Source: a virus. Taken from it: a DNA stretch of 23,151 bases. This document shows, one piece after another, positions 4,149-22,863 of this stretch. Under the pieces are notes generated by a model. That model ran no database searches. It had not been told where the DNA came from and saw only the letters and a program-made list of their open reading frames with translations. Made by a program: the position numbers and the translations under genes. The number at the start of each line of letters is the position of its first letter. Positions within the stretch are counted from its first letter, which is position 1. The stretch spans positions 1-23,151 of the IMG/VR virus record IMGVR_UViG_3300039159_000196; one strand, given 5' to 3'.

Positions 4149-6368
4149 TTAGACCGCACCAGCAATTTCAGTGAAGTCAACGCCCGTACGAGTTGCGACA
4201 AAGTTGAGTTCGATGAAGTTGATTGAGCGAGCAGGTGACAAGAATATAGTCCCTGCGAAGCGGTTGCTGTCGATGACTTGAGGTGTGTTGTTAGTCTCAT
4301 CGCACACGACACGGAAGTCGTACAGACCACGGCGGCCTTTCACATCACGCAGGAACGGTTCCACGGTTGCACGGAACTGAGCACGAGTCTGGACATCGTT
4401 GATCTCGAACAACTGGTACTTAGCTGCTGTCGCGATCGCTTTTTCCAACACGATGAACAAGCGACGAACGTTGATACGATCGAATGCGCTTGGCTTAGAC
4501 AGACCAGTCTTGTCACCGTAAAGCACAACACCTTGACCTGGGAATGACACGACAGGGTTCACACCAACTTTGTACAGGTTGTCACGGTCAGTGCGAGTAG
4601 GACTGAAAGCAAGCTTCACAACGTTCTTGATCGAACCGCGAGTCAGACCAGCAGGAGAGAACCATGGGTCGTTCGTTTCGTCAGTGCGAGCACAGAGACC
4701 TGCGATGTCACCATTCAGAGGCACCCAACGGTACTTGTCAGAGTAACGGTCATACTGGTACTTGTAACCTGAGTCGATCACGAAGTAAGAGCTAGATGGC
4801 AGGGTGTTACGGTAAGCAATGATCTTATCTACGATCGCAGATGTGTTACCGATAAGAATATTACCTGAGGAAACATCTTGTGGGCTAACGAATGCCATAC
4901 AATCCTTACGGAATTCAGCTACATTCTGGATAACGTAATTAGCAACTGCAGAAGATGCTTTACCTGTGATGATCAAATTGACATCAAGTGCTTCATCATT
5001 CTGATAAAGGCTGAAAGCATTCATGCGCTGACCGTCAGTAGCTGTGTAGTGATCAACACCACCCGACAAGCTACGAGTGATGGCGGTTGCTCCGATAGAT
5101 GCGAAAGCAAATTGACCTGCTGGTTGACCCCAGTTTGTACCAACGGATGGGTGATCCATGTTCCAAACGTATGCAGACTGTTCTTTCAGGACTGAGCGGT
5201 AATAAGCAGATGAACCATCTTCCTTCTTAGCGTCACCAGCTTTTGACACATACTCAAATTTTTCAAGAACTGTTCCAGCTGTGCCAGACCATTTGCCTTC
5301 TTTGTCAACGATGACGATATGAAGTTCATCACCTGAAGTGAATGCACCAGCCCGAGCTGTAGCATACGTAGATGAACTTGGGGCACCGTTAAACAGGGAC
5401 TTGTATTCCCATGACTCGAATGAAGCACTGTCAGCCATTGACACTGTGAGTGAATTGCCAATTGAACCAGGATACTTAGCTGCAAATTCACCAACAGTAG
5501 CTTCACCATTTTCAAATGAAGCTGTGTAATGATTCAGGTTGTTAATCTTCAAACCAGCGGCGACAATGGTTGGTGTACCAAGAGAGCCTGGTGTGATTAC
5601 TTGTCCGCTGATAGCTACAGCATCAGTCAAAGTCACAGTAGGTACGGTGTAATAACCATAACCAGGATCAGTGATCTCAACGCTAGTTATAACACCATTA
5701 GAAATTACTACAGAAGCTTGTGCGACAAGTCCTGTACCAGTAAGTACTGTTGGTGAAAGCTGTGCTCCTGTACCACCACCACCTGTAAGTGATACGGCTG
5801 GGGGCACCAAGTAACCTGAGCCAATAGCGGTCATAGTAATAGAAACAACCATACCAGCAGTTGCACCACTACCAAGTACAGCCGTAGCTGTAGCATTAAC
5901 ACCACCGCCTGGAGCGGCTGCGATAGTAACAGCTGGAGGCGTGCCATAACCTGATCCACCTGATAGAACTTGAATTGGTGCAACACCACCGACTACAGCT
6001 GGTGGAGCAGAGACTGACACATTCACAGATTTATAATTAGTACCACCAGACACAACTGGGATTGAAGACACTGTGTAAGTTAATGCGGAAACAGCATTAC
6101 GTTGATTAGTTGTGTCTGAACGAACAACTAGCAAATTATTTGAATAAGCCAAAAAGTTAGCTGCAGACAACCAATTTGCTGCATTGCTATCAGTAGGTTT
6201 ACCAAATTGTGCCGCAAGGGTGTTCTCTGAATTGACAGTAGTCACTTCTTGAACAGGACCCCACCCAGCTTCAATGACGGCTGCGCCAATCGAGGTTGCT
6301 ACACCTGGGACGATGTTGGTCAAGTCCGTTTCTTTAACGACTACGCTTGGAGATAGTTGAATTCCCAT
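4149..6368 (-). CDS. gp18: Contractile tail sheath gp18 with inserted repeat domain
   Basis: A 739-aa protein, longer than T4 gp18 (659 aa). It polymerises around the gp19 tube and contracts to drive it into the host. The N-terminus (MGIQLSPSVVVKETDLTNIV, then GVATSIGAAVIEAGWGP) and the C-terminal half (VNPVVSFPGQGVVLYGDKT, INVRRLFIVLEKAIATAAKY, RSINFIELNFVATRTGVDF) are typical sheath core. Between residues about 105 and 262 there is a Gly-rich beta-repeat insertion with G-S-G-Y or similar at 138-141, 183-186 and 236-239, placed after the strand LLVVRSDT. The same repeat type occurs in two other tail proteins here. AAGGA precedes the ATG, and a consensus late promoter lies upstream. Confidence 0.96.
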   Translation of the reverse strand: MGIQLSPSVVVKETDLTNIVPGVATSIGAAVIEAGWGPVQEVTTVNSENTLAAQFGKPTDSNAANWLSAANFLAYSNNLLVVRSDTTNQRNAVSALTYTVSSIPVVSGGTNYKSVNVSVSAPPAVVGGVAPIQVLSGGSGYGTPPAVTIAAAPGGGVNATATAVLGSGATAGMVVSITMTAIGSGYLVPPAVSLTGGGGTGAQLSPTVLTGTGLVAQASVVISNGVITSVEITDPGYGYYTVPTVTLTDAVAISGQVITPGSLGTPTIVAAGLKINNLNHYTASFENGEATVGEFAAKYPGSIGNSLTVSMADSASFESWEYKSLFNGAPSSSTYATARAGAFTSGDELHIVIVDKEGKWSGTAGTVLEKFEYVSKAGDAKKEDGSSAYYRSVLKEQSAYVWNMDHPSVGTNWGQPAGQFAFASIGATAITRSLSGGVDHYTATDGQRMNAFSLYQNDEALDVNLIITGKASSAVANYVIQNVAEFRKDCMAFVSPQDVSSGNILIGNTSAIVDKIIAYRNTLPSSSYFVIDSGYKYQYDRYSDKYRWVPLNGDIAGLCARTDETNDPWFSPAGLTRGSIKNVVKLAFSPTRTDRDNLYKVGVNPVVSFPGQGVVLYGDKTGLSKPSAFDRINVRRLFIVLEKAIATAAKYQLFEINDVQTRAQFRATVEPFLRDVKGRRGLYDFRVVCDETNNTPQVIDSNRFAGTIFLSPARSINFIELNFVATRTGVDFTEIAGAV
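5583..6056 (-). repeat. G-[ST]-G-Y beta-repeat insertion in the sheath
   Basis: Codons for about residues 105-262 of gp18. The unit, roughly 45-50 residues, reads GSGY-x3-P-x-V-x-[LI] followed by a Gly-rich turn and a strand ending in VxSVxITxxGxGY. It interrupts otherwise conserved sheath core and probably projects from the sheath surface. Such repeats are familiar in marine T4-like tail proteins. Confidence 0.7.
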
Positions 6369-10226: not shown

Positions 10227-10453
10227 TTTGATACCAAAAGTTGAAGTAATTGCTTGATCTCCGACATCTCAGAAGTCAAAGTCTTAACGGTGACATCAAG
10301 CTGAGCAATTTTATTTGCCTCGTTCTTAACTCTATCTGCCTCAGCGGCTGCTCGATAGAAGGCAGAGTTGTCATTTACAATGATCGCCCCATTCCCATCC
10401 CGCAAAATGTTTGGGATGACACGACCATTTTCATCTTGAATGACACTGCTCAT
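10223..10453 (-). CDS. Small coiled-coil protein at the fibritin position
   Basis: A 76-aa protein. Residues 1-30 (MSSVIQDENGRVIPN...) look like a short beta hairpin; from about residue 34 to the end there is a continuous amphipathic helix with heptads (RVKNEANKIAQLDVTVKTL, then MSEIKQLLQLLV), typical of a small coiled coil that could trimerise. Not assigned to a named family. It lies directly before gp13, where T4 carries the long coiled-coil fibritin gene wac, so a collar/neck or tail-fibre attachment role is possible but unproven. TAATG overlap with the upstream 872-aa gene and ATGA overlap with gp13. Confidence 0.75.
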   Translation of the reverse strand: MSSVIQDENGRVIPNILRDGNGAIIVNDNSAFYRAAAEADRVKNEANKIAQLDVTVKTLTSEMSEIKQLLQLLVSK

Positions 10454-13071
10454 TAGGTTGCCAGAATGATTACGCGATAACTATTTATCGTTGGAACAAT
10501 CATCCGGTTTGTACTGCGAAGTACAAGTTTGATGTCGTACACATCGAACGGTGGCAAGTCAGGTGTAGTGAAAGTGTAATCGAGTTGTTCTGTCGGTGTT
10601 CTAGACCGATTCCGTTCAACTTCGCAACTCATTTTTGTCCAATTTTGATTAGTATGAATAAGACTGTTAGAAGTCAGTGAGGTGCGAATGTACACATCAA
10701 CATTGGATTCTGGCATTGAAATAGCCGTAAGAATGACTTGAGCTCCCTTTGAAACCTGGGCAAGCTGAAACTGCTTTGTAAGATACTTTGAACGAGCTGA
10801 ACCACCACTTGGTAATAGTTCTGAGTTAAAAGGACCAATACCTAAGATGCCAATAGCATTTTGGGTGCCGCCAGTTATGGTAATATTTGGAGTACGTAAG
10901 TAACCAGAACCCGGTGTAACAAGATTCAAAGAAGTCACCGTACCACCAACAATATTACCAGTCACAACAGCCTGAACTCCGCCCGCAATATGCGGTGGGT
11001 CAACTATGACAGAAATGTTTCCAACTGTAAAACCAGTCCCAAAATTTGATCCGACTATAGTTGCACTAATCACAGATGCAGATGCGTTAGACGAAGTTAA
11101 ATCTTCATCATTAGTTTGATTGTTGATAATATAAGCATATGTGGATAACTTAGGTTGCTCAGAGACAACTATAAGAGGAGACACATTAGGGTTAGATGAA
11201 GACATTTTCAATAACACTGATGTACCTGCTGGTTCAATTGAATTATTGATGTTTGCAATTGAATTTTGCGGTGACACTAAAATTGATGGGGATTTTGGTT
11301 CATAGTAACCATCTTCGATAGTCGTTGCTGGAGAAACCGTATAAGTCTCTGATGTGGTGATAAGATCCGTTGAAATGCTGCATTCTGCAGGAACGTGTGT
11401 AACCACTTGTGGTTGATAACCAGCCACAATATTGTTAGTCGTTAACACGAAGATGGATTCACATACCAACTTGGCTTGTACTTCCATGTTAGCAGTATGA
11501 GTACCTAGAACGGTGACCGTAGGTGCAACCGTATAACCGCTACCAACGTTAGTTAGATTGATTGCTACGATTTTGCCACCAACGATGACAGGTACTGCCT
11601 GAGCTGGTGATGTGAAAATACCACCAGATATTTGAACGCTGCAGTCAAGTGTGTTGTATCCTGTGCCGCCGTCATCGACAATAATTTCATTAACAAAACC
11701 TGGACACGCTAAAGTCCCATCTGATGTTGCGACTGACGCACACTGGAATGAAAACACATAATCAGAAATTAATGTTATGCTAAAATTACCAGTCAAATTT
11801 GCTTTTGGGATACCTCTAAATACGCCGCCTTCTTTAGCAGCAAGAGTAATCACATCGTTGGTTTTCATGCCGTGCTGATGCATTGTGCATACTGTAATAG
11901 TGTTGCTTCCAGCTTTTACTAAAAAGTTTGAACCCATTAATAACAACGGTGTCGCTTTTGCTATAAATTTTATAGAAGATGTAGTCGATGAAGTATCAAA
12001 TTTTGCTTGGTTAAGTGTAAACTTAATGTCTTCTGATTGCTCAGCGGTCCATGTAAAATCATTTTGCGATTTGAACATAGAACCTAGGAATGGCTGTTCA
12101 AAAATGATCAGATTATTTTCAAGAGCTCTCTCACCTATTTTTGACGTATAGATGTTATAGCCACTAGAATTTGACCGTACGACGAAACAATAATCAGAAT
12201 TTTCTTTAAGATAAAGCGGAATATCAAATGTGAATCGTGTTGCGACAGATGAATTTGCCGACACATTTACTGAAGCTGGTTTCAGTGTGCATGTTGCGAA
12301 TGGGTTTACTAGAGAACGCCCCGGATAGCCATTCACCATTTCGCGAATTTCAACCCAAACTGGAAGTGTAGTATCTTTGGTAGCAAAGAATAGGTCTAGT
12401 GATGTTATAAACACTCCACCAGATACCCCATGAGTAAAGAATGATTGTGCAAGCGGGTCAGCTGGACCTCGACCAGTATTTCGTTGCACTTGCTGAAATG
12501 TAGTCGTTGTAGTTATAGTTGTGACTTCATCAATGACATCAGCTGGTGGTGGGTCAATGATGTTTAGGGTGATCGTTTGTAGTGAGTCATGAGTAGTCTT
12601 GTAGGTTTCTTTAACACCTTGAGTGCTATAAGTGGCTGATGCAGACCCAACCATTGACCCAGGAACTGTAGACGTGTCTAAGATGGCTGTGTCTTGCAAC
12701 CTTAATACGCGTTGACCAGTTCTAAATTTATTACCTTTAATAGTGAATGTTGCGTTAAGCTGACCAGTAGCATCAGTGATAAGTGGATCGCCCATGGCTT
12801 TACCATTTTGCTGCATCCATTCGCCAACAGCTTCACCATCAAAAAAAGCATATAGTCTAGTATTAGGCTTAGTGTCTACAACATTCACATTCACCACATT
12901 TGATCGAATCCAAGCAATTGGTGTAGACCCAACCAGATCAGTACGAGATGTAGTGATCGTTGAAGATTGCGCATTGGATGTGAATGCCTGCGTGGTGTTT
13001 ATCTGAGAACCGGGTAGATTACCAGCATTTGTAGGGTTGCCCCAAAAGGTGTTACCTTCTTGATTAGCCAT
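10453..13071 (-). CDS. Large tail/baseplate structural protein
   Basis: An 872-aa virion protein of a kind seen in marine T4-like phages. Its most recognisable part is residues about 205-315: DPLAQSFFTHGVSGGVFITS, LDLFFATKDTTLPVWVEIRE, MVNGYPGRS and KENSDYCFVVRSNSSGYNIY, a beta-sandwich region often seen in baseplate or fibre-associated proteins. G-[ST]-G-[YF] repeats occur at 469-472, 510-513, 678-681 and 721-724. The C-terminus (LTKQFQLAQVSKGAQVILTA onwards) is another beta domain. It occupies the T4 region of genes 11/12 before the neck genes, but I do not equate it with either. A late-promoter-like box lies 153 bases upstream in the preceding gene. Expected location: baseplate or tail tip. 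Confidence 0.85.
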   Translation of the reverse strand: MANQEGNTFWGNPTNAGNLPGSQINTTQAFTSNAQSSTITTSRTDLVGSTPIAWIRSNVVNVNVVDTKPNTRLYAFFDGEAVGEWMQQNGKAMGDPLITDATGQLNATFTIKGNKFRTGQRVLRLQDTAILDTSTVPGSMVGSASATYSTQGVKETYKTTHDSLQTITLNIIDPPPADVIDEVTTITTTTTFQQVQRNTGRGPADPLAQSFFTHGVSGGVFITSLDLFFATKDTTLPVWVEIREMVNGYPGRSLVNPFATCTLKPASVNVSANSSVATRFTFDIPLYLKENSDYCFVVRSNSSGYNIYTSKIGERALENNLIIFEQPFLGSMFKSQNDFTWTAEQSEDIKFTLNQAKFDTSSTTSSIKFIAKATPLLLMGSNFLVKAGSNTITVCTMHQHGMKTNDVITLAAKEGGVFRGIPKANLTGNFSITLISDYVFSFQCASVATSDGTLACPGFVNEIIVDDGGTGYNTLDCSVQISGGIFTSPAQAVPVIVGGKIVAINLTNVGSGYTVAPTVTVLGTHTANMEVQAKLVCESIFVLTTNNIVAGYQPQVVTHVPAECSISTDLITTSETYTVSPATTIEDGYYEPKSPSILVSPQNSIANINNSIEPAGTSVLLKMSSSNPNVSPLIVVSEQPKLSTYAYIINNQTNDEDLTSSNASASVISATIVGSNFGTGFTVGNISVIVDPPHIAGGVQAVVTGNIVGGTVTSLNLVTPGSGYLRTPNITITGGTQNAIGILGIGPFNSELLPSGGSARSKYLTKQFQLAQVSKGAQVILTAISMPESNVDVYIRTSLTSNSLIHTNQNWTKMSCEVERNRSRTPTEQLDYTFTTPDLPPFDVYDIKLVLRSTNRMIVPTINSYRVIILAT
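10482..10489 (-). promoter_or_regulatory. T4-type late promoter, GATAAATA
   Basis: NATAAATA box inside the last codons of the 872-aa gene, 29 bases before the 76-aa ATG; it would drive the 76-aa/gp13/gp14/gp15/gp17 unit. Confidence 0.6.
10837..11070 (-). repeat. G-[ST]-G-[YF] beta repeats in the 872-aa protein, second cluster
   Basis: Codons for about residues 668-745, with GTGF at 678-681 and GSGY at 721-724; same unit type as in sheath and gp8-like protein. A first cluster (GTGY 469-472, GSGY 510-513) lies at about 11452-11694. Confidence 0.6.
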
Positions 13072-13080
13072 TTACATCTT

Positions 13081-16000
13081 TCAGTTTAGAATTCGGGCAG
13101 TGGCCCCGAGAGCTTTAAGGGCATACTTGAATAGAATATGCGCACCGGTTTTAGCACCGATTTGCTTGGATGCTTCAGCCAACATCCAAGTAGTGAATTT
13201 CATATTGATACGTCCGACAGCTTTATTTATAATATAGATACCATACATAACATTTGCGTCTGAAATATAAGATTCAAAACAAGCTGTGATGCCAGCTTGA
13301 TCGATGTAGCCCGCCTCAAATGCTAGCAGAGCACCAGCTGGGTCACCGATGATAGAAGTCGTACCATACCCATTGACTTGATAAGTGTAATCACCATCAG
13401 TCCAAAGATTGTACACATAATCAACTCGATCATATGATTCAACCCATACTGCTAGTTGGCTAACATCTTTAAGCCATGGGTATATAGACTTGGTCTTTTT
13501 AAGGTTAGCCGAGCTAAGCTGTCCGTCAATATATAGCGGGTGATCATCTGTCGCGAAAGGAGACATAATTTTATCAGGTGAGTACAACTTAGAATCAGGT
13601 CTCATTTTGACATGTTCTAGCAACTTGACTTGATTAATCCGAAGACCTGATGCAGAGAGAACCATGTCACCAATAACTACGTCTTCGATTGCTCTCAAGC
13701 TTCCGTCAGCCATAGTGACTTTAGAACCAGCGATGAAACAGCCGCTTGAACTAGATGATGACACCGGTGGTGGAGGTGGTGGTAATGATGTGACAGACAC
13801 TACACGACCATTGAGTGAGGATTGAACTGTTGTAGAAACAGAAGTCCCAACTATTTGCGAAGTGCTATTCCAAAATGTCCCAGTATCGCCAACGGAGACT
13901 GCAACGTTTTTAGTTACTTTATTGATAATTGGAGGCGGCGCCGGAGAAAATTGTACTAGAGCACCAACCGGCTGCGGCTGCCACCCAAATGGGCGATGCA
14001 CGACGATGGTCTGTGACTTAGTGTCATTAGTTTGCGCAGGAAGATAATCGTAATCAATCCAGTTATCAAATGATGGTGTTAATCTCATCAACCCAGTCCA
14101 ACCAAATGACATGAATGGGTTAATGTTTGTAGTTCGCGATGAAAATGGCTGTTTAGCAAATTCAACTGTAGTGTAAGGCAATGTGTGAACAACATTACTT
14201 GTACTAAGTCTAGTATTTGTGGCCTCAGTCAAAGTAAGGTCAACAAGCTGACGCTCAATTGTAGGGATTAATCCACCAGCGGCATAAGAAGTTGTAAACT
14301 CTGGATTTTTAATATCAGAAATAGTGTCTGGGTTATCGAAAGTATCGACCAAATATCCAGACTTGAATCTGCTCAAACCAGTTGCGGCATCAATCACATC
14401 ATAATTGATAGTTGATTTTTCCGATTGTGTTAGAAGTGTAAAATCTTCAATGTTCATGACACGAGATTCAAGCTTACCGATCTCAGCCATCGTGTACCCA
14501 CGATTATTTGTGGCTTCCAAATAAATCTCATCAAGTTTTGAAGTGTACGCAGGAATGTACATCTTAGCTAGTATGATCGCATTCATAGGTATGACTGGCA
14601 ATTGAGGATTTTCCCCAGGTGCACCAGTTACCACACTAACCTTACTAGATGGGTCCATCACCACAGCAGCTATTTGCGGTACATAGAAAGAAATTGTACT
14701 AGAAAAACGCGATTCAGGTATGATTAGCTCAGATGTGCTGATGTAACCTGTGCTAGTATCATTTTCACGTGGGCGAAAGTCGATACAGGTAGCTAAGTCA
14801 TATGTAGTACCATCTGTTGGTGATTTGAATGATGGTATAGTTTCATAGCGACCATTAAGTGCAGTCGTGTAAGACTCAGGCCCAAAGAAATCACCGCTAC
14901 CACTATGTGTGAAATAATCATACACTACAGTCAATGTGCCAGTGACAGGCAGACCAACTAGAACTAACCTACCACGTAGATAAGCATAATCCCTTTGCCC
15001 ATTGTCAAGTACATATCGATCAGTAACATTGCCAAGAGTGGTTGACACTACAGAAATTAAACGATAAACATCTGCTTCCTTTAGCATAACAATAGGACCA
15101 ACCGCCAATCCTGTTTCAGTTTTTGGTGGAGCAAGAGCTTTGGTTTTACTAACTATATTTACTTTAGAGCAAGCAACGACTGCTTGAATTGGTAACCCTG
15201 CAGCCCAAGTGCCGCTAACAGTTATAGCTGTTCCAGGACCATTCAATGTCAGACCTGTACTTTGAACACCTGTTGGGCCAACGATAATGAAATTTCCAGC
15301 CTCTAACGGATCAATTGTAATGCCTGTCACGTTACCAATAGACAAAGTAGCACTATTAAGTGTCGTGGATGCTGATATAGACTTATAGACTTTATAAGAC
15401 ACATTAGTCGTACCGACTGTTTTCAATGCTGGAATGTTTAATGGGATTACTGATGAATTCCCAAGGTAATTACCAACAGTTGTGACCGTCGCAACAGTAG
15501 CTGAACCAGCAGAGCTTACGATTAAGTCATTAACGATCGGGATTGAGTTAGCACCACTTCTATAAACATACATCTCACCAAGTGTTTTGTCCCATTTCCA
15601 AACGATGGCTGATCTAGACAAACCAGTAACCGTGATAGTGCTATCTTTAACAAAGTTAACACCTGAGCTTGGTACACTAAATTTATGAAGAACTTTACCA
15701 ATGCTTGCTCCTATAGCAGACTTCATGTAACCTACACTTGTCAAGGAAGCCCCACCTGTCATCACAACATCAGTAATGAAAAACTTATAAATCCAATTCT
15801 GATTGACATCATTAGCGTCTTGGAAATCAACCGCGATGACTTTTGCAGTTCCAACTTCAGTACCACCAACATAAGAAAATAATTTGACCGTCTCTCTTGC
15901 ATTAGTGTCAGGTAATTTAAGAATGTCTGACACATATAGGAACTGACCAAACGATGGTGTAATCGTGATTGCTCGTGTTTTTACGTGATCAGCCGTTCTG

Positions 16001-17040
16001 GCTTTAGCAACAGCAAACGCTGACTTGGCCAATAATTCAGTTTCAAATCCTTTAATGTAAGCTTTACCTGGCGCTACATTTACAGCAAATAAAGATGAGT
16101 CTCCACCCTGAGCTTCATTAAACAGACCAGTATTGAATCTGGTTTTAAGGTGTTCTCGGATAGAAACATCAAGACCATTAGCTACATAATCACCAGACTC
16201 ATCGTATGTACGACGAGCTAGGGATTTTTCCAATTCGTTGTACTTGGCAAACCTAGCATGCTCTTCCAGAATACCGTCACGGAATCGCATCAGTTCAATA
16301 TAATCTTCAGTCACATTCGAACCAACATCATTTAATACTGGCAATGACGTCATAATCAGAGACAACTTGAAGCGGTCCGCACCTGGTGCCGAAAAGTTAT
16401 ATGAACCGTTAGCTGGGTCTAATAGTGTGGTGTCAAGGTCGGAGTTAATGACTTCTTCAATAATTTGGAGCAACACATGGCAGCTAGGAGTTGTTGTGTA
16501 CTTACCGATCACAACAGTTTGTTTTGCGACATTAGCAAAGATGCCATTTACATAGTAAACGCCGTCGGTTATAGATGCTACAGACCCTAAACCGGTAGAA
16601 TTGTTAGATGCAGCATAAAGCGTTGTTGAGCCAATAGTCAAAGGCTCGCCATCAAGAAATGCACCTGAGCCTGACATATAACCAACATACAATGTGTCTG
16701 GGTCAGTGTCAATTGCCTTTGTAGCCAATTTGATAACTGCAACCACACCTGAAGTAGACCCGGTAATTTTTTCACCAATTAGAGATGTTACATCAAGCAA
16801 CCCGGTTGGCTGCAACTTAACATACGGAACCGCCAAATCGGAGTAACTGTTGCCAGGCACAACCAACGATCCTTGACGAAATACATGATTGCCAAACGAC
16901 TTAACTTGGTTTTGCAGAATGCTTTGGATTTGTGTCAACTCTCGGGCTTGGACAGAATATCCAGGCTTGAATAAGATCTTATAGTAATCCTTATCGGCCG
17001 AGTAGTCATCAAAGTATGGGCTGTAATTAAATGTGGTCAT
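13081..17040 (-). CDS. DUF4815-type baseplate protein with C-terminal Hint domain
   Basis: A 1319-aa protein. The N-terminus (NYSPYFDDYSADKDYYKILF, then PGYSVQARELTQIQSILQNQ and FGNHVFRQGSLVVPG) is the hallmark of DUF4815 virion proteins of T4-like marine phages, which lie in the baseplate gene cluster. Long beta-rich middle. Near the end come six Pro (1087-1092), Val, six Ser (1094-1099) and Gly1100, then a Hint domain starting at Cys1101: CFIAGSKVTMADGS with GDMVLS, TDDHPLY with His1167, and a late strand VYNLWTDGDYTYQVNGYG. A roughly 90-residue helical tail follows. Hint domains cleave at the residue before the Cys, so self-release of residues 1-1100 is plausible. No terminal Asn splice block is evident, so protein splicing is unlikely. 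It sits between gp8-like and 872-aa genes. Confidence 0.9.
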   Translation of the reverse strand: MTTFNYSPYFDDYSADKDYYKILFKPGYSVQARELTQIQSILQNQVKSFGNHVFRQGSLVVPGNSYSDLAVPYVKLQPTGLLDVTSLIGEKITGSTSGVVAVIKLATKAIDTDPDTLYVGYMSGSGAFLDGEPLTIGSTTLYAASNNSTGLGSVASITDGVYYVNGIFANVAKQTVVIGKYTTTPSCHVLLQIIEEVINSDLDTTLLDPANGSYNFSAPGADRFKLSLIMTSLPVLNDVGSNVTEDYIELMRFRDGILEEHARFAKYNELEKSLARRTYDESGDYVANGLDVSIREHLKTRFNTGLFNEAQGGDSSLFAVNVAPGKAYIKGFETELLAKSAFAVAKARTADHVKTRAITITPSFGQFLYVSDILKLPDTNARETVKLFSYVGGTEVGTAKVIAVDFQDANDVNQNWIYKFFITDVVMTGGASLTSVGYMKSAIGASIGKVLHKFSVPSSGVNFVKDSTITVTGLSRSAIVWKWDKTLGEMYVYRSGANSIPIVNDLIVSSAGSATVATVTTVGNYLGNSSVIPLNIPALKTVGTTNVSYKVYKSISASTTLNSATLSIGNVTGITIDPLEAGNFIIVGPTGVQSTGLTLNGPGTAITVSGTWAAGLPIQAVVACSKVNIVSKTKALAPPKTETGLAVGPIVMLKEADVYRLISVVSTTLGNVTDRYVLDNGQRDYAYLRGRLVLVGLPVTGTLTVVYDYFTHSGSGDFFGPESYTTALNGRYETIPSFKSPTDGTTYDLATCIDFRPRENDTSTGYISTSELIIPESRFSSTISFYVPQIAAVVMDPSSKVSVVTGAPGENPQLPVIPMNAIILAKMYIPAYTSKLDEIYLEATNNRGYTMAEIGKLESRVMNIEDFTLLTQSEKSTINYDVIDAATGLSRFKSGYLVDTFDNPDTISDIKNPEFTTSYAAGGLIPTIERQLVDLTLTEATNTRLSTSNVVHTLPYTTVEFAKQPFSSRTTNINPFMSFGWTGLMRLTPSFDNWIDYDYLPAQTNDTKSQTIVVHRPFGWQPQPVGALVQFSPAPPPIINKVTKNVAVSVGDTGTFWNSTSQIVGTSVSTTVQSSLNGRVVSVTSLPPPPPPVSSSSSSGCFIAGSKVTMADGSLRAIEDVVIGDMVLSASGLRINQVKLLEHVKMRPDSKLYSPDKIMSPFATDDHPLYIDGQLSSANLKKTKSIYPWLKDVSQLAVWVESYDRVDYVYNLWTDGDYTYQVNGYGTTSIIGDPAGALLAFEAGYIDQAGITACFESYISDANVMYGIYIINKAVGRINMKFTTWMLAEASKQIGAKTGAHILFKYALKALGATARILN
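13224..13231 (-). promoter_or_regulatory. Possible late promoter inside the Hint-protein gene, TATAAATA
   Basis: Perfect T4 late box on the minus strand, within codons ATT ATA AAT AAA, 153 bases before the 872-aa ATG. It could drive that gene, which otherwise lacks a nearby late box; a chance match in coding sequence is possible. Confidence 0.5.
13351..13740 (-). other. Hint (hedgehog/intein-type) autoprocessing domain
   Basis: Codons for about residues 1101-1230 of the DUF4815-type protein. Catalytic Cys1101 is encoded by TGT at 13740-13738 and follows a Pro6/Val/Ser6/Gly linker. Block A (CFIAGSKVTM...IGDMVLS), block B (ATDDHPLY, His1167) and the late strand block (YNLWTDGDYTYQVNG) are present in order. 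Confidence 0.8.
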
Positions 17041-17049
17041 ATCGGCTTT

Positions 17050-19101
17050 TTAGAATTGTAGAACTGTTCGAAATGAAACTGTTTGGTCAGATGTTTGAGT
17101 GAACGCAGGCCTATTGTCAATCAACAGCATGCTCCCAGTAGTTTTATCTACATTTGGCGGCATCACTGTAAGTGCCGTCATTGTAGTTGGAGTACTTGGT
17201 ATATTTATCACTTCTCCTGGAGAAATTGAACCGGAATTCAACGGCAGAAGAAGCATTCTATTAACACCTGCATTGCTAAGCTCTGTAGACACTACAAGGA
17301 ATTTCTTAGAACCAATTTCTACCCTGGTGTCAGCTGCCCAAAGAGAATTGTTGAATACCCCTGAAACGGAATAACATGCGCACGCGATGTCAGAGTCAAT
17401 CGGCAATTTTGACTGTGAGCTATTGATAAGCAAGCTCTTTGCAGTTGTTGTCGATGTAGTTGCGGTTATGGTTGGATTACTTGGTGCTGTCGTATGACGT
17501 AGCACAGCTCCATTAGCGATAGTAGTTCCGTTTACAGTAAAGACTTCCATCGTTGTTGATGTGACACCATACACAATAATTTTATTTAGAGCAATATCAG
17601 TCAAAACTGAACCGACAGCAAATGTCGTAGTGTTGAACCCAGTACCAGTAAGATGAAATAGATTTTTGGATGTTAAGTTTGTGCTTGACATCAGTTCAAC
17701 ACCAGTTAAAGCAGTCAACACCATACCTGAAGTTGGTCCAACTACTACTGCCGTAGATTGATAAGTAGCTAAAGATGGAGCACTAAATATAGTACCAACT
17801 GGGAAATTGGTTATGTTTGAACCACCAGTAAATTGCACAGTCACTGCATAAGAGTTTGTGCTAATTGGGTCCGAAAGATTTGTTCCGTAAGTAAGACCAC
17901 GAGGCGATCGAATTATTCCATATTGGCGATAGTCATTATTGATCTTAACGCCGCCATAAGACTCTCGTGTAAGATTTCCATAAAACATTAATGCTGAAGC
18001 AAATAGCTCTTCCGATGCATTACGACCATGACCTAGCGGCGGACTAACATTAGCTACTGCTGAAGCTAGAACTCCAGTACTAGTTAGATTTGCAGTAATG
18101 ACAATGTTAGCATAATTGTAATTTCGCCCTGGGTTCGTAATCGTAATAAAAGCGATAGAGTTGTTGGTAGCATTCAGTGCCCATGACAGTTCAGCACCAG
18201 TGCCGTCACCTTCAATAGTGACAGAAATATTGCTCATTCCGCTTCCACTATTTCTAAGAATGATATTATCGATAGTGCCTGGTACAGCTAACATTTCAAC
18301 CACAGCCTGAGATGATGTGTAATCGCCTGTAGATAAATTGATAGCCAATTGTGCCCCCATACCAGCTGAAGCACCGGGGTTAACTGTAGCTACAGCGTGG
18401 GTATAACCAGACCCAGCCTGTGTGATTGTTGCCGATACTAATTGTCCACCAACGATAATTGGTTCAAGAATAGCGCCAGTACCATCGCCTGAAACCGTGA
18501 TGGTGGTTTCTCCCTGAGAATATCCAGATCCAGCACCTTCAATGTTCAACGAATCGATAGACCCATTTGAGAAAAATCGAGACCGTAAAGATGTGGTGAC
18601 AGGCATGTACTCACCAGTTAGGAACTTGTTGCGAAGACTTAGCGGTAGGTTATACATGAACTTCCAAACATACCCGTCAGCCATCGTCTGCGGCGCTAAG
18701 TCAGTTGTGTTAGGCTCATTAACCGATGGGATACCACCAGCATTCCAAAGACACTTGTATACGTTATTGGTGGCATTACTTAAGCAATATATCTGATGCA
18801 CAGTGTCAACTGTTTCGGCAGCAGACACGTCGTACATATTAAAAACTTTACCATATTCCCAGTTAACACGAGGCAACACAAGACACACATCAGCAGGACT
18901 AATAAGCTTAAGCAACACCATATTCGTGCGAGCTTTAGACTCATAGTCAACATTAGATTCAGGTGTTTCAACTATGTCCGGCCCTGCAATAAAATCAACT
19001 GTGCGTCCCATGTAATAGTAGTACCGGGCTTGCTTCGAAGCGATTTCAGAATAGATTGCCTCAATGATTGTTCGCTTAAGAGCCTGTTTAACGATAGCCA
19101 T
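17050..19101 (-). CDS. gp8: Baseplate wedge protein, gp8-like, enlarged
   Basis: A 683-aa protein, about twice T4 gp8 (334 aa). gp8-type features: an N-terminal helix followed by ARYYYYMGRTVDFIAGPDIV, SPADVCLVLPRVNWEYGKVF, a DTVHQIYCLSNATNNVYKCL strand pair, MADGYVWKFMYNLPL, and after the insertion GHGRNASEELFASALMFYGN...NNDYRQYGIIRSPRG. A beta-repeat insertion occupies residues about 185-350 with GSGY at 191-194 and 230-233 and variants at 286-289 and 325-328. The C-terminal 270 residues are beta-rich and not assigned. AAGGA lies 6 bases before the ATG, and a late box lies 20 bases upstream of it. Place in the cluster (before DUF4815 and neck genes) agrees with T4 gene 8. Confidence 0.85.
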   Translation of the reverse strand: MAIVKQALKRTIIEAIYSEIASKQARYYYYMGRTVDFIAGPDIVETPESNVDYESKARTNMVLLKLISPADVCLVLPRVNWEYGKVFNMYDVSAAETVDTVHQIYCLSNATNNVYKCLWNAGGIPSVNEPNTTDLAPQTMADGYVWKFMYNLPLSLRNKFLTGEYMPVTTSLRSRFFSNGSIDSLNIEGAGSGYSQGETTITVSGDGTGAILEPIIVGGQLVSATITQAGSGYTHAVATVNPGASAGMGAQLAINLSTGDYTSSQAVVEMLAVPGTIDNIILRNSGSGMSNISVTIEGDGTGAELSWALNATNNSIAFITITNPGRNYNYANIVITANLTSTGVLASAVANVSPPLGHGRNASEELFASALMFYGNLTRESYGGVKINNDYRQYGIIRSPRGLTYGTNLSDPISTNSYAVTVQFTGGSNITNFPVGTIFSAPSLATYQSTAVVVGPTSGMVLTALTGVELMSSTNLTSKNLFHLTGTGFNTTTFAVGSVLTDIALNKIIVYGVTSTTMEVFTVNGTTIANGAVLRHTTAPSNPTITATTSTTTAKSLLINSSQSKLPIDSDIACACYSVSGVFNNSLWAADTRVEIGSKKFLVVSTELSNAGVNRMLLLPLNSGSISPGEVINIPSTPTTMTALTVMPPNVDKTTGSMLLIDNRPAFTQTSDQTVSFRTVLQF
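17212..17219 (-). promoter_or_regulatory. Possible late promoter inside the gp8-like gene, GATAAATA
   Basis: NATAAATA box on the minus strand within coding sequence, 171 bases before the ATG of the DUF4815-Hint gene, which has no closer late box. It may be chance. Confidence 0.4.
18052..18549 (-). repeat. G-[ST]-G-Y beta-repeat insertion in the gp8-like protein
   Basis: Codons for about residues 185-350, splitting the gp8 core. Units read GAGSGYSQGETTITVSGDGT, then QAGSGYTHAVATV, and two degenerate copies. Confidence 0.65.
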
Positions 19102-19136: not shown

Positions 19137-20477
19137 TTAATCTGAAGCTACAACCTTAATTGGGAATGGCTTGCGGATTTTTGATGACTGACGTTCAGTG
19201 TGAGTGAACAGTTTTTGCCGATACTCAGGAAGGTCTTTATTATATATCTTATATGGAGCATACCCAGTGAGAGATTCTATAGCGATAGCGAATAGAGGTA
19301 TAGCATCAGAGTAAGCGTTATCACACGAGGTATTGAAAAATTCATCTTGCAAAAACATACAAGAACCACCACATAAGGCTAATACAGGGCATTTTTGACA
19401 TTGCGATCTTTCAGTCCAATGTGTAGCTGTGTTTAATACAATATTGGATGTATCTGATAGATGACCAATCTTATGTGAAGTGCCTAAAGCCGATACCTCG
19501 TTAGACGATGTATTTTGGCAGGTGATAACATTACCTGTTAAATCGATAGCCATTATATCTTCTTTATCCATACCACATTTTTGGCCACGAGAACCCATAT
19601 ACTTTTTAGAAAGTAAGGAATCCCTAAAACCATCTATCTGTGACTTCTGCCCAGGTATTCGAATTAGCTTAGGCATATTTTCTCTAATCTCTAGCCAATT
19701 GTTTCTACGACGATCAATATCTTCTTCACTTGAAAGAAGTGATAGAGGAACTGAAGCATCATTATATGTATCAACCCAAACCATCTCATAATGAGAGATG
19801 TTAATCGTCGGGAATTTTTCTGCAAACCAATCGATGATGGCCATCCTAGATTGGTTATCTTTGTTTAACATCGATGAAACGCCAACGGGTCTACCTGCTT
19901 TCTGGGTTTCAGTAAATAACCTTAGGATCTGATCCCAATTATCTTCAAGCAGTTCATCACCACGAACATACTGTCCAGGCCCATCATGAGAAATTGAAAA
20001 CCCAATTTTGTTATCTAAGATCCAATCTACTTTCTCAGCATTCAATAAGCTACCGTTAGTTATAATCGAAAAAGTAACTTCACTTCCAAGCACGGCTTTC
20101 AGTGCTTCATGAAGCGGCTTTAAAGTTTTCCAATAGACAAATGGTTCACCCCCCCAATATTCAAGTCTGTTGACCATACTAAGATCTAGGTTTTTTAATT
20201 TCTCAATAAATGCTTCTATATCATTAGCAGAAGTCGATTCCGGTGCTTCAACAAACCGCTGTGAACAATACTCGCATGAATAGTTGCATGATAGTCCTAA
20301 CTGAACTTTCAAGACTTTTGGCGTTGATGATTTTTTCTTAAACGATACTGGATCAAGAACTACATCATCAGGGTATAGCAATGGTTCGTCACTTAACTCG
20401 GAGTTTAGATTGTCAAAATAAAAGTTTCTCTTAGTCCCATCTTCAAGACTTTCGCATTCAATAATAAAATGTGCCAT
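19137..20477 (-). CDS. Radical SAM/SPASM protein-modifying enzyme 2
   Basis: A 446-aa radical SAM protein. Residues C64, C68 and C71 form the CxxxCxxC motif that binds the SAM-cleaving 4Fe-4S cluster; GGEP at 109-112 is the SAM amino-group motif. The C-terminal SPASM domain is complete: C301-x13-G315-x4-C320, then C360-x2-C363-x5-C369-x3-C373 and C385, ligands for auxiliary clusters. SPASM enzymes modify peptides and proteins (thioether, C-C or ether crosslinks; formylglycine in anSME). A ~60-residue N-terminal extension precedes the barrel and is absent from its partner. The ATG lies 20 bases inside the end of radical SAM 1, so the two are translationally coupled. The substrate is not known; the Cys-rich 138-aa protein is the obvious neighbour candidate. 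Confidence 0.93.
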   Translation of the reverse strand: MAHFIIECESLEDGTKRNFYFDNLNSELSDEPLLYPDDVVLDPVSFKKKSSTPKVLKVQLGLSCNYSCEYCSQRFVEAPESTSANDIEAFIEKLKNLDLSMVNRLEYWGGEPFVYWKTLKPLHEALKAVLGSEVTFSIITNGSLLNAEKVDWILDNKIGFSISHDGPGQYVRGDELLEDNWDQILRLFTETQKAGRPVGVSSMLNKDNQSRMAIIDWFAEKFPTINISHYEMVWVDTYNDASVPLSLLSSEEDIDRRRNNWLEIRENMPKLIRIPGQKSQIDGFRDSLLSKKYMGSRGQKCGMDKEDIMAIDLTGNVITCQNTSSNEVSALGTSHKIGHLSDTSNIVLNTATHWTERSQCQKCPVLALCGGSCMFLQDEFFNTSCDNAYSDAIPLFAIAIESLTGYAPYKIYNKDLPEYRQKLFTHTERQSSKIRKPFPIKVVASD

Positions 20478-21480
20478 TTAAAAATCCATTTTGAGTTAGT
20501 TGCTCGTTAAAATCTTGAAGATCAAGATATTCATATACATTTGCTTTAATCTTTTCCAGCTTACAATCGATTGTATGTGTCTGACTTAGATGACAGTTAC
20601 CTTGACATAAACTTCGAAGTTTACAGGATTTACATTCGGTGCTATCAACAAATTTTCGTGAATTTGTATCAGCTAAGAATTCATTTGGTTTTGCTAACTT
20701 TTGGAACGTAATTACATTCTCTACCTTATTAACATCAGTACAATTATGGTGACACGTATATCTATTACCATCCAATGTGACATTTAGTTTGTCAGCCCCA
20801 TGACACAACCCATCGGTTCTATAATCAGTAATAGCGAGACTCTTTTTCCATTTTATATAATGAGGTATGAAAAAGTTTATAGAACTAGGTTCACCATTCA
20901 AAGCATCCTTTGCAACGTTCAATAGATTTAAGTGGAGACTTGGTAAATGTTCTTTGGTAAACCAAAATTCCTTTGGAGTTTCTTTTGTTGACCTGACCCA
21001 GTGACCATACAAATGGACATGCTTTTTCATTAGATGCTGAATGTCATTATTCCACTTGAAAGTATCATAGATGTTAAATCGTTGTCCATGCAATACATAA
21101 GACACCCCAAAGTCATCAACATTTTTTAGTTTGTCAAATTTGATTGAAGATAGATCATCATGATAACTTAATCGTAAAGATGCTCTCCACTTATTTACAT
21201 CACTAACACATTCATCGGTAATCAAAGACCCATTAGTCATGATTTTAATTAATGGAGATTTAACCCCTGCAGCATCAAACCTATTCTGAATAGCTTGGAT
21301 GTCTTTCCAATATAAAAGCGGTTCACCACCCCAATAAGATATACCACCTGAAGCATACTGAGAGAATGTCTCAACGAATTTGTCATAATCAGGGGTCTTA
21401 ACTCTATTTGGTGATTCTTTACCTTGTAGACAGTATGCACAATTGAAATTGCATGCTGACCCTAAAAAGATATTCAGCAT
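20458..21480 (-). CDS. Radical SAM/SPASM protein-modifying enzyme 1
   Basis: A 340-aa radical SAM protein starting directly with the barrel: C10, C14 and C17 form CxxxCxxC (CNFNCAYC) and GGEP lies at 51-54 in YWGGEPLLYW. The SPASM domain is complete: C226-x11-G238-x4-C243, an extra C247, then C283-x2-C286-x5-C292-x3-C296 and C306. The motif spacing closely follows the SPASM consensus, so it should carry auxiliary 4Fe-4S clusters. Its middle is shorter than in enzyme 2. The ATG overlaps the stop of the 307-aa gene by one base (TAATG). It is strongly AT-rich: the 60 bases from 21121 hold 14 G+C, against 31 of 60 in a terminase stretch from 7681, suggesting an acquired accessory gene. Confidence 0.93.
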   Translation of the reverse strand: MLNIFLGSACNFNCAYCLQGKESPNRVKTPDYDKFVETFSQYASGGISYWGGEPLLYWKDIQAIQNRFDAAGVKSPLIKIMTNGSLITDECVSDVNKWRASLRLSYHDDLSSIKFDKLKNVDDFGVSYVLHGQRFNIYDTFKWNNDIQHLMKKHVHLYGHWVRSTKETPKEFWFTKEHLPSLHLNLLNVAKDALNGEPSSINFFIPHYIKWKKSLAITDYRTDGLCHGADKLNVTLDGNRYTCHHNCTDVNKVENVITFQKLAKPNEFLADTNSRKFVDSTECKSCKLRSLCQGNCHLSQTHTIDCKLEKIKANVYEYLDLQDFNEQLTQNGFLNGTFYY

Positions 21481-22403
21481 TAGTTTATTACCGTCATAGT
21501 GTGTTCAGCAACCCCAGTGAAATTTCTAAAACCGACCTTGACCCTAATCTCGTCACCTGCAAGTAGACCTAATGCCATGACTGGAATTTTAATTTGTCCA
21601 GCTTGAACTCTAGTTTTGGGTAAATAACCTGCAGTGGATTCCAAATAAACATCTGCAGTTTCTTCATCAAGCAATTCACCATCACTATTGATAAGTTCTA
21701 AGTCTAAGTATGTTAATTGATCTTTTAGAATAACTACAGGTCCAGTTAACCGTAACGAAGGGAAAAATCTACCGTTATATCTATTCTGCGTAACGGCAAC
21801 AAAATCTGCTTCGGAAAACGCTACATTGGATGACATCCCATGTCTTTGGTCATAACAAACTGAGACAGAACAATCTTTTACTTTTCTATTAGCAAAAGGC
21901 ACTATGAGCTGGGCGACACATGAGGTATTACCTTTTAGAAGATACCGCATAGACTTAGCACGAGAAATGAAAGAATCCGTGAATGCACTTATTGGGCTAT
22001 TTGCTAATCGACCACCCTCAAATAAAAAGAACCAATTAGAATAATCAGCCCATTCACCTTTTCCTAAGGGTCTAACTGGGTCATCTGTTTTGAGTAAAGA
22101 TCTAGCTTGAATTCTATACAAAAGTTCAGGTGAATTTGAACCGATGATTTCGCCACCGATAAGAGTGCCAAGATCAGGATAGTTAATCTCACGGTTTGCC
22201 CATTGAGCTTCGGATATGAAGACCCACCCACACTCTGGTTCTGGTTCTATTAGAAGACTCGAGTCTGAAGATAAACTTCTATTGTTTATTTTGACCGGTT
22301 TAAGTTCATAGACCATAATTTCATTTTCTAAGATGATTATATCTAAGAAATGATCTAATGCACTACCGGCATACTTGTGGCGTGATACTTTTAATGTTGT
22401 CAT
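21480..22403 (-). CDS. Unknown protein in the radical SAM operon, Ig-like C-terminus
   Basis: A 307-aa protein I do not recognise. Residues 1-60 include a helix and short strands; a middle region with GWVFISEAQWANREINYPDL and EWADYSNWFFLFEGGRLAN is aromatic-rich; the last ~85 residues (TYLDLELINSDGELLDEETA, VYLESTAGYLPKTRVQAGQI, DEIRVKVGFRNFTGVAEH) read like an Ig-like or invasin-type beta sandwich, common in virion proteins. It has no signal peptide or membrane segment. It has five Cys only (58, 163, 177, 183 area) and no Cys repeats. It sits between the Cys-rich protein and the two radical SAM genes and overlaps the first by TAATG, so it may be a virion partner, a modification substrate or an accessory of the pathway. 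Confidence 0.75.
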   Translation of the reverse strand: MTTLKVSRHKYAGSALDHFLDIIILENEIMVYELKPVKINNRSLSSDSSLLIEPEPECGWVFISEAQWANREINYPDLGTLIGGEIIGSNSPELLYRIQARSLLKTDDPVRPLGKGEWADYSNWFFLFEGGRLANSPISAFTDSFISRAKSMRYLLKGNTSCVAQLIVPFANRKVKDCSVSVCYDQRHGMSSNVAFSEADFVAVTQNRYNGRFFPSLRLTGPVVILKDQLTYLDLELINSDGELLDEETADVYLESTAGYLPKTRVQAGQIKIPVMALGLLAGDEIRVKVGFRNFTGVAEHTMTVIN

Positions 22404-22407
22404 AATT

Positions 22408-22415
22408 TATTTATC
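22408..22415 (-). promoter_or_regulatory. Second copy of late box, GATAAATA
   Basis: NATAAATA box on the minus strand only 4 bases before the 307-aa ATG, part of a 36-base tandem duplication. Too close to the ATG to leave a ribosome site, so it is probably an unused duplicate; its GGAT more likely serves as a weak Shine-Dalgarno for the 307-aa gene. Confidence 0.35.
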
Positions 22416-22443
22416 CATCGTTACAATAGCAATTGCTATAATT

Positions 22444-22451
22444 TATTTATG
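22444..22451 (-). promoter_or_regulatory. T4-type late promoter, CATAAATA
   Basis: NATAAATA box on the minus strand that contains the TAA stop of the 138-aa gene. It lies 40 bases before the 307-aa ATG and is the likely late start for the 307-aa and two radical SAM genes. Confidence 0.6.
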
Positions 22452-22863
22452 AATCGCCACAAATGCAATTGCACTGGCTATAATTGCAATTGCATACGAA
22501 GCAATTGCAATTGCAGTTACAGTTTGCTTGTAGATAAGTCCCATGAGAATATGTACCAACGTTACAATTTATAGCATACCTAAGTGTGCAATTAGCATAG
22601 CTATATTGCATGTTGTCATCATTTGCTTGTACCGCAGTCTGACTTGGGGTGCAGTTTGTAGTCGTCCCTACAGCTGTAGCATTAATCCAGTTAGTGCTAG
22701 AAAAAGCAGTGAAGTATGCATACCCTCGTATTGACTGCAGATCACTATAAGTGAACCTAGTAGCTCCACGAATCCAAAGGAACTCTCTATAAGTAGCTGC
22801 TGCAGCTCCAATTTCGACGTTGACTTGGTCTATCCCAATAGAACCACTTGCGGGTAAAGTCAT
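22447..22863 (-). CDS. Cys/Asn-repeat protein with phage tail-fibre-type N-terminus
   Basis: A 138-aa protein with two parts. The N-terminus (MTLPASGSIGIDQVNVEIGA, with RGYAYF near 46-51) matches the short motif found at the start of many phage tail-tip and fibre proteins (TLPASGxIxxxQVNxE). The rest is Cys/Asn-rich: Cys at 71, 92, 100, 115, 117, 119, 121, 124, 126, 131, 133 and 135, nine of them preceded by Asn, ending in consecutive Asn-Cys pairs at 114-121. C71-T-P-S-Q resembles a C-x-P-x sulfatase-type motif. AGGA lies 8 bases before the ATG, which overlaps the stop of a 15-codon ORF. Possible roles: substrate for the radical SAM enzymes just downstream, a metal-binding CxC tip, or a disulfide-rich adhesin. 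The function is not established. Confidence 0.85.
   Translation of the reverse strand: MTLPASGSIGIDQVNVEIGAAAATYREFLWIRGATRFTYSDLQSIRGYAYFTAFSSTNWINATAVGTTTNCTPSQTAVQANDDNMQYSYANCTLRYAINCNVGTYSHGTYLQANCNCNCNCFVCNCNYSQCNCICGDS
22465..22515 (-). repeat. AATTGC hexanucleotide repeats encoding Asn-Cys
   Basis: Repeated AATTGC units (two runs of two, plus singles) encode the Asn-Cys tail of the 138-aa protein. The unit is nearly self-complementary (GCAATTGC is a palindrome), so replication slippage could change Asn-Cys number without breaking the frame. Confidence 0.7.

Follow-up and report, generated by a model that had tools for sequence, protein, structure and literature searches.

In this study, we found that the last 219 residues of a baseplate protein from an uncultured T4-like phage carry a Hint domain and a helical tail, which together resemble the self-removing C-terminal module (Hog) of Hedgehog proteins. 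The module, designated Hint-T, ends a 1319-residue open reading frame (ORF) on the minus strand of IMG/VR record IMGVR_UViG_3300039159_000196, positions 1 to 23,151 (the whole stretch analysed, hereafter the window). We propose that residues 1101-1319 form a Hog-type module that removes itself. After folding, Cys1101, together with Thr1164 and His1167, would move the Gly1100 carbonyl onto its thiol. An outside nucleophile, activated by Glu1142, would then attack the thioester, and the module would depart from the baseplate protein. The tail, packed on the Hint domain, would most likely recruit or admit this nucleophile, as is the case for the sterol or adduct recognition region of Hedgehog. 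On balance we favour this combined statement of a Hog-like module whose tail steers the nucleophile. The site is very probably catalytically active and splicing by it is unlikely; we infer cleavage at Gly1100-Cys1101 and, with less confidence, a nucleophile other than water, a specific adduct rather than an acid being a somewhat doubtful product. The features concerned are as follows.

13084..17040, minus strand (ORF 13081-17040): intact ORF of 1319 residues, comprising the N-terminal part of VrlC/VriC (DUF4815), a linker and the Hint-T module
13741..13782, minus strand: linker Pro6-Val-Ser6-Gly, PPPPPPVSSSSSSG, residues 1087-1100, read from the sequence
13345..13740, minus strand: Hint domain, residues 1101-1232, from Pfam Hom_end_hint/Hint, AlphaFold2 and Foldseek
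13738..13740, minus strand: Cys1101, predicted N-S acyl-shift nucleophile, after Gly1100; Cys in 33 of 33 distinct Hint-T sequences
13615..13617, minus strand: Glu1142, aligned (to 1at0) with the Hedgehog general base D46 (fly D303); Glu in 33 of 33
13540..13551, minus strand: block B, T-D-D-H, with Thr1164 and His1167; Thr and His in 33 of 33
13084..13344, minus strand: helical tail, residues 1233-1319, predicted to resemble an adduct recognition region, without known fold; conserved with the Hint domain in all relatives, helices from AlphaFold2

The first-pass annotation had placed a Hint domain behind the Pro6-Val-Ser6-Gly linker, and its positions for the linker and for Cys1101 (codon 13740-13738) were exact. 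The Pfam Hom_end_hint match begins exactly at residue 1101, with an E value of 3e-6 on the fragment that is under Pfam's own cut-off, and the best match in the PDB by single sequence was PI-SceI (E 0.002). Since these single-sequence scores were modest, the case was built from relatives. Window residues 1099-1319 were modelled using AlphaFold2 with a 30-row alignment, which bore out the Hint fold expected at Cys1101 (predicted local distance difference test score, pLDDT, 91.7; predicted template modelling score, pTM, 0.86). The model consists of a beta Hint domain from 1101 to about 1232 and then five helices. Foldseek ranked the eukaryotic Vint domain (8r2c, E 6.7e-7) first for the Hint part, followed by bacterial intein-like domains (BIL2 and BIL4), inteins and, lower, Hedgehog. 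Vint is part of a VWA fusion, unlike the window protein, and no VWA or Vwaint domain was found in the window or in the relatives scanned. The model and Foldseek thus give the fold, and the block A nucleophile and the Thr and His of the block B TxxH motif are present in all 33 sequences. These results indicate that a Hint fold is present from Cys1101 in the model.

Relatives of the module were reached through alignments. A search of viral_contigs with the window protein alone returned one helicase intein and otherwise no match. The window was aligned with two Hints from VrlC loci that end in His-Asn-Lys (HNK-type Hints), leading to a large set of phage Hints, and the subset with the window's own end, VNGYGTTSI(I/V)GDGG plus about 90 residues, was used in a second search. 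Hint-T was found in about 40 uncultured viral contigs, and the complete members are 210-232 residues long and always end the protein. Among 33 non-identical members, whose conserved counts are not independent events, Cys1101, Phe1102, Glu1142, Thr1164, His1167, Thr1227 and Gly1267 of the tail are invariant, as are YNLW and the D-x-D-x-T strand motif. The mean column identity of the 30-row alignment was 48%, and the invariance of the first five residues against this value supports the proposed chemistry. Both Hint and tail are under purifying selection, with ratios of nonsynonymous to synonymous divergence (dN/dS) of roughly 0.05-0.4 in informative pairs, near-identical pairs being uninformative. 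For the pair L170/L171, dN and dS were 0.03 and 0.18 in the Hint domain and 0.12 and 0.56 in the tail. The residues ahead of Cys1 are rich in Pro, Gly and Ser (52% of the last 14), with Gly at position -1 in 19 of 33. Because the acyl-shift site (Cys1 and TxxH) is complete in every relative, release of the tail and a Hedgehog-like adduct, both raised by the first-pass annotation, are both live options.

A His-Asn pair at the Hint end is absent from all 33 Hint-T sequences, and the window reads GTTSIIG there. Of the outcomes listed by the first-pass annotation, cleavage or ligation, this absence favours the cleavage or adduct side and goes against splicing. Hint-T without His-Asn would neither splice nor cut at its own C-terminus, and therefore an outside nucleophile is required to resolve the predicted thioester; a dedicated, ever-present tail argues for controlled resolution. 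A canonical intein was ruled out, as there is no His-Asn and no C-extein, and the protein ends with the tail. The last strand of Hint-T, TYxVNGxGTTSI, is closer to TIVVNSVAAS of Hog than to the intein VHN.

We compared the module with Hog. Both are C-terminal modules that begin with Cys-Phe, have TxxH and an acid at the general-base column, and lack His-Asn. Both consist of a Hint domain of about 130 residues and a helical region of 80-100 residues, and the window has Gly at -1. In Sonic hedgehog (SHH), the sterol recognition region (SRR) has 97 residues and the active site comprises C198, D243, T267 and H270/271, with D243 corresponding to D46 (PMC7906309); the general term for the region after Hint is adduct recognition region (ARR) (PMC2362128). 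In a MAFFT multiple alignment in which the fly Hint sequence was identical to 1at0, the D46 column fell on Glu1142, and all 30 Hint-T rows have Glu in it. Between this acid and the Thr of TxxH, the spacing is 22 residues in the window protein and 23 in Hedgehog. When the family profile was compared with Hedgehog, only the first 30 residues aligned, so the match of Glu1142 with D46 rests on MAFFT and the spacing, without residue-level superposition. Hog differs in that it belongs to secreted signals, whereas Hint-T belongs to phage structural proteins; its base is Asp or His rather than Glu, its tail is unrelated in sequence, and cholesterol is implausible in a bacterium.

Bacterial intein-like domains (BILs) are likewise Hints in variable, linker-rich parts of non-housekeeping proteins, and the best PDB sequence match of the family profile was a BIL of C. 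thermocellum (2lwy, 4.6e-5). A-type BILs have His-Asn and can splice, whereas B-type BILs lack block G and only cleave (PMC4031507). No Hint-T has the His-Asn of type A, and similarity to block G is absent from Hint-T as from type B. However, a conserved helical tail is undescribed for either type in the literature searched, and Hint-T has no C-flank to cut. The closest sequence relatives of the Hint domain are the HNK-type Hints of phage tail proteins, which sometimes stand in tandem directly ahead of Hint-T. Unlike Hint-T they end in His-Asn-Lys without a tail, and A-type chemistry is expected of them. In loci L089-L167, a loose regular expression gave 76 motif matches, a few of them spurious; Lys followed His-Asn in 46, and 17 of the 76 lay within 4 residues of the protein end.

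The first-pass annotation had described a helical tail of 90 residues; it is helical in the model, with an actual length of 87. Modelled alone, the tail gave a pLDDT of 77.7 and a pTM of 0.62, below the whole module. This, together with the lack of a PDB match, suggests that the tail is an integral part of the module without a solved counterpart. Its helices are basic and amphipathic, its net charge is positive in 32 of 33 members, and it has no transmembrane segment.

Several points weigh against a Hog-like module with a steering tail. Neither by sequence nor by fold does the tail match the SRR, a PDB entry or any other known domain, and therefore its role is assigned by position only. The window scores 18-21 bits with the Pfam model of the Hog Hint (PF01079), against a gathering score of 29.7. 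The HNK-type Hints of these phages also have an acid at the Glu1142 column in 14 of 23, so that Glu1142 is supportive of adduct chemistry, not diagnostic. Moreover, water could be the sole nucleophile.

Hint and tail move as one unit among non-homologous carrier proteins. As well as VrlC, the carriers include a putative gp5-type spike, in our reading of an N-terminal sequence without Pfam match (L168/169), and a lone VrlC sub-domain (L178, L188). A small beta protein in which a hydrophobic stretch precedes Cys1 (L131, L172) and large Gly-rich proteins (L194, L204) also end in the module, as do L176, a protein with seven Hint domains, and L201, a tip protein rich in Cys and Asn. The first-pass annotation, right about a Hint at a baseplate protein, missed this recurrence on unrelated tail proteins. 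The L176 protein (L176:1574-7084, 1837 residues) has six tandem HNK-type Hints, several joined as HN-K-C, and then the terminal Hint-T. Hint-T was not found in INPHARED phages or PLSDB plasmids, and the single bacterial match was one metagenome-assembled genome (MAG), all other members being metagenomic contigs; there is therefore no cultured Hint-T phage for comparison. In this Burkholderiales MAG (L234:1-1026), Hint-T follows a very long poly-Pro linker, and ParM-like and recombinase-like ORFs, identified by eye, lie around it, possibly in a mobile element.

As the first-pass annotation had held, the carrier in the window is a baseplate protein. Residues 1-1085 belong to the VrlC/VriC family (Pfam DUF4815, 8e-48), and phrog_358 matched residues 2-1085 of the 1319 (5.8e-224). 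This is the same protein as VriC/VrlC of Ackermannviridae and cyanomyoviruses, and by sequence the 1319-residue protein is a DUF4815/VriC baseplate protein. VriC is abundant in virions (311 spectra in the Vi01-like phage Sajous1; PMC10892097) and has been suggested to build prongs beneath the baseplate (PMC11721090). However, the ORF holds only the N-terminal part of VrlC. The C-terminal part, absent from the first-pass annotation, is the next ORF, beginning 9 nt past the stop of the Hint-T ORF:

10453..13071, minus strand: C-terminal part of VrlC, a separate ORF of 872 residues, from phrog_358 positions 1316 onward and a C-half profile

Elsewhere VrlC is one ORF in 66 of 69 unselected loci, only two of these 69 having a Hint, of HNK type in each. 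Likewise, any Hint was found in only two of 80 VrlC loci from viral contigs, both of HNK type and in the middle of the C-terminal part. In contrast, Hint-T on VrlC always ends the ORF, and where the locus is long enough the rest of VrlC is the next ORF, usually 3-35 nt on. The breaks fall at two joints. Joint 1, ahead of the PF(I/M)R domain, is used in the window, L170, L171, L175, L183, L186, L191, L192, L195, L200 and L202; the last is the closest relative (N-part E about 1e-280), with an identical arrangement and a second ORF of 763 residues. Joint 2, immediately ahead of the DPLAQTF motif, is used in L174, L177, L178, L181, L188, L190 and L141. In-frame HNK (A-type) Hints stand at joint 2 in L021, L089, L093, L105 and L125, mostly between flexible linkers, and L185/L187/L189 have two HNK Hints and then Hint-T there. 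The first-pass annotation missed both the position of the module at a VrlC break and the sharing of one joint with A-type Hints in sister phages. VrlC is also split in two ORFs near joint 1 without a Hint in L007 and L069. In our reading, VrlC tolerates an interrupted chain at these hinges and may even need one.

This arrangement raises protein ligation, in which the N-terminus of the second VrlC half, made from its own ORF, would accept the Gly1100 thioester in trans and so restore a single chain. The short gap to the remainder of VrlC in most loci and the in-frame HNK Hints at one joint of unsplit relatives fit this idea, and a 2013 study, as cited in PMC4031507, reported that trans-splicing by a BIL domain can proceed in the absence of a nucleophilic side chain. 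Nevertheless, ligation appears improbable. Hint-T has no His-Asn and no C-intein piece, and the second chains begin with MAN, MAT, MPY, MSY, MKP or MAK; trans-ligation through an N-terminal Cys was rejected, as no second chain has a Met-Cys start. The module is also found on proteins without a second half (L131, L168, L194, L201), and Hint-bearing VrlC carries extra Pro/Gly linkers that splicing would leave in place. Since VrlC is broken at joint 1 without any Hint in Xanthomonas phage X1 and L069, rejoining the halves does not call for a Hint.

The main rival to a Hog-like module is plain hydrolytic self-cleavage, in which Hint-T would be an assembly aid, water the acceptor and the tail a folding or oligomerisation domain. 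The location of the module at the very C-terminus of many unrelated structural proteins, together with its helical tail, is reminiscent of C-terminal chaperones, and comparison with PDB folds did not recognise an adduct-binding fold in the tail. Peptidase_S74 domains are such intramolecular chaperones, located at the C-terminus of tail spikes; no S74 Pfam match was found in the window or the family. We consider hydrolysis alone less likely. An acid that never varies at the D46 column of Hog, and a model in which the tail forms a unit with Hint, suggest more, and the tail helices described above are atypical for trimerisation stalks. An inactive Hint fold, retained at the baseplate tip for a structural or binding role, was also weighed. 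Hint-like folds without catalysis exist, as in AXH domains, and cleavage is so far a deduction. However, Cys1, Thr and His are fully invariant in 33 divergent sequences, and residue -1 is Gly or small or charged, not beta-branched, which makes loss of activity quite improbable.

Cys-rich repeats and radical S-adenosylmethionine (SAM) genes were observed in the same loci. Window positions 19137-22863 on the minus strand encode two radical SAM/SPASM enzymes, most like maturases of ribosomally synthesized and post-translationally modified peptides (RiPPs) such as PapB. A 138-residue protein ending NCNCNCFVCNCNYSQCNCICGDS adjoins the pair and is a candidate substrate. Long Cys-x-Cys repeats occur in three of all loci fetched (L042, L201 and Achromobacter phage JWF), each with a homologous radical SAM gene. 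A Cys/Asn repeat directly before a Hint, near a radical SAM gene, is found in L201:9518-10660, L148 (Hint ORF) and L235:3811-5262; the last is PJWF_00028 of the cultured phage JWF, where the repeat and the Hint share one Cys, the final one of the repeat. After such a repeat, the Hint could act as a follower that removes itself from a modified tip. Cys-Gly-Cys-Gly or a similar motif lies within the 12 residues before Cys1 in L174, L175, L177, L178, L181, L188, L190 and L201. These are 8 of 32 distinct loci, whereas the Cys content elsewhere in the proteins would predict about 1.4. Separately, short GGxGYxxxPxVTI-type repeats are common to window 4149-6368 (tail sheath, by eye), 10453-13071 and 17050-19101 (gp8-like wedge), all on the minus strand. 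The latter two matched phrog_460/701, and such repeats occur in many head and tail proteins.

BILs and Hog are familiar systems, automatic annotation has already entered phage 'Hint domain' proteins in databases, and Hint-T is a Hog-like variant within the known superfamily. The literature searched did not describe virion proteins that bear a Hint module with a tail, nor were virion proteins known there to undergo Hedgehog-type autoprocessing. We tentatively suggest, with rather more doubt than confidence, a phage form of Hedgehog-like chemistry, in which the C-termini of baseplate, spike and tail-tip proteins would receive a specific nucleophile (a lipid, sugar, amine or protein) through thioester transfer by a portable Hint and tail, in some cases behind Cys-rich tips in radical SAM clusters. 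If an adduct is left, a large group of uncultured T4-like phages would have covalently bound groups on the host-facing surface of their baseplates. If there is cleavage only, Hint-T would represent a new type of tail-assembly module that removes itself. In both cases, it is predicted to form thioesters as a compact, genetically encoded unit, and it could shed light on the origin of the Hog domain, which was left open by Burglin 2008 (PMC2362128).
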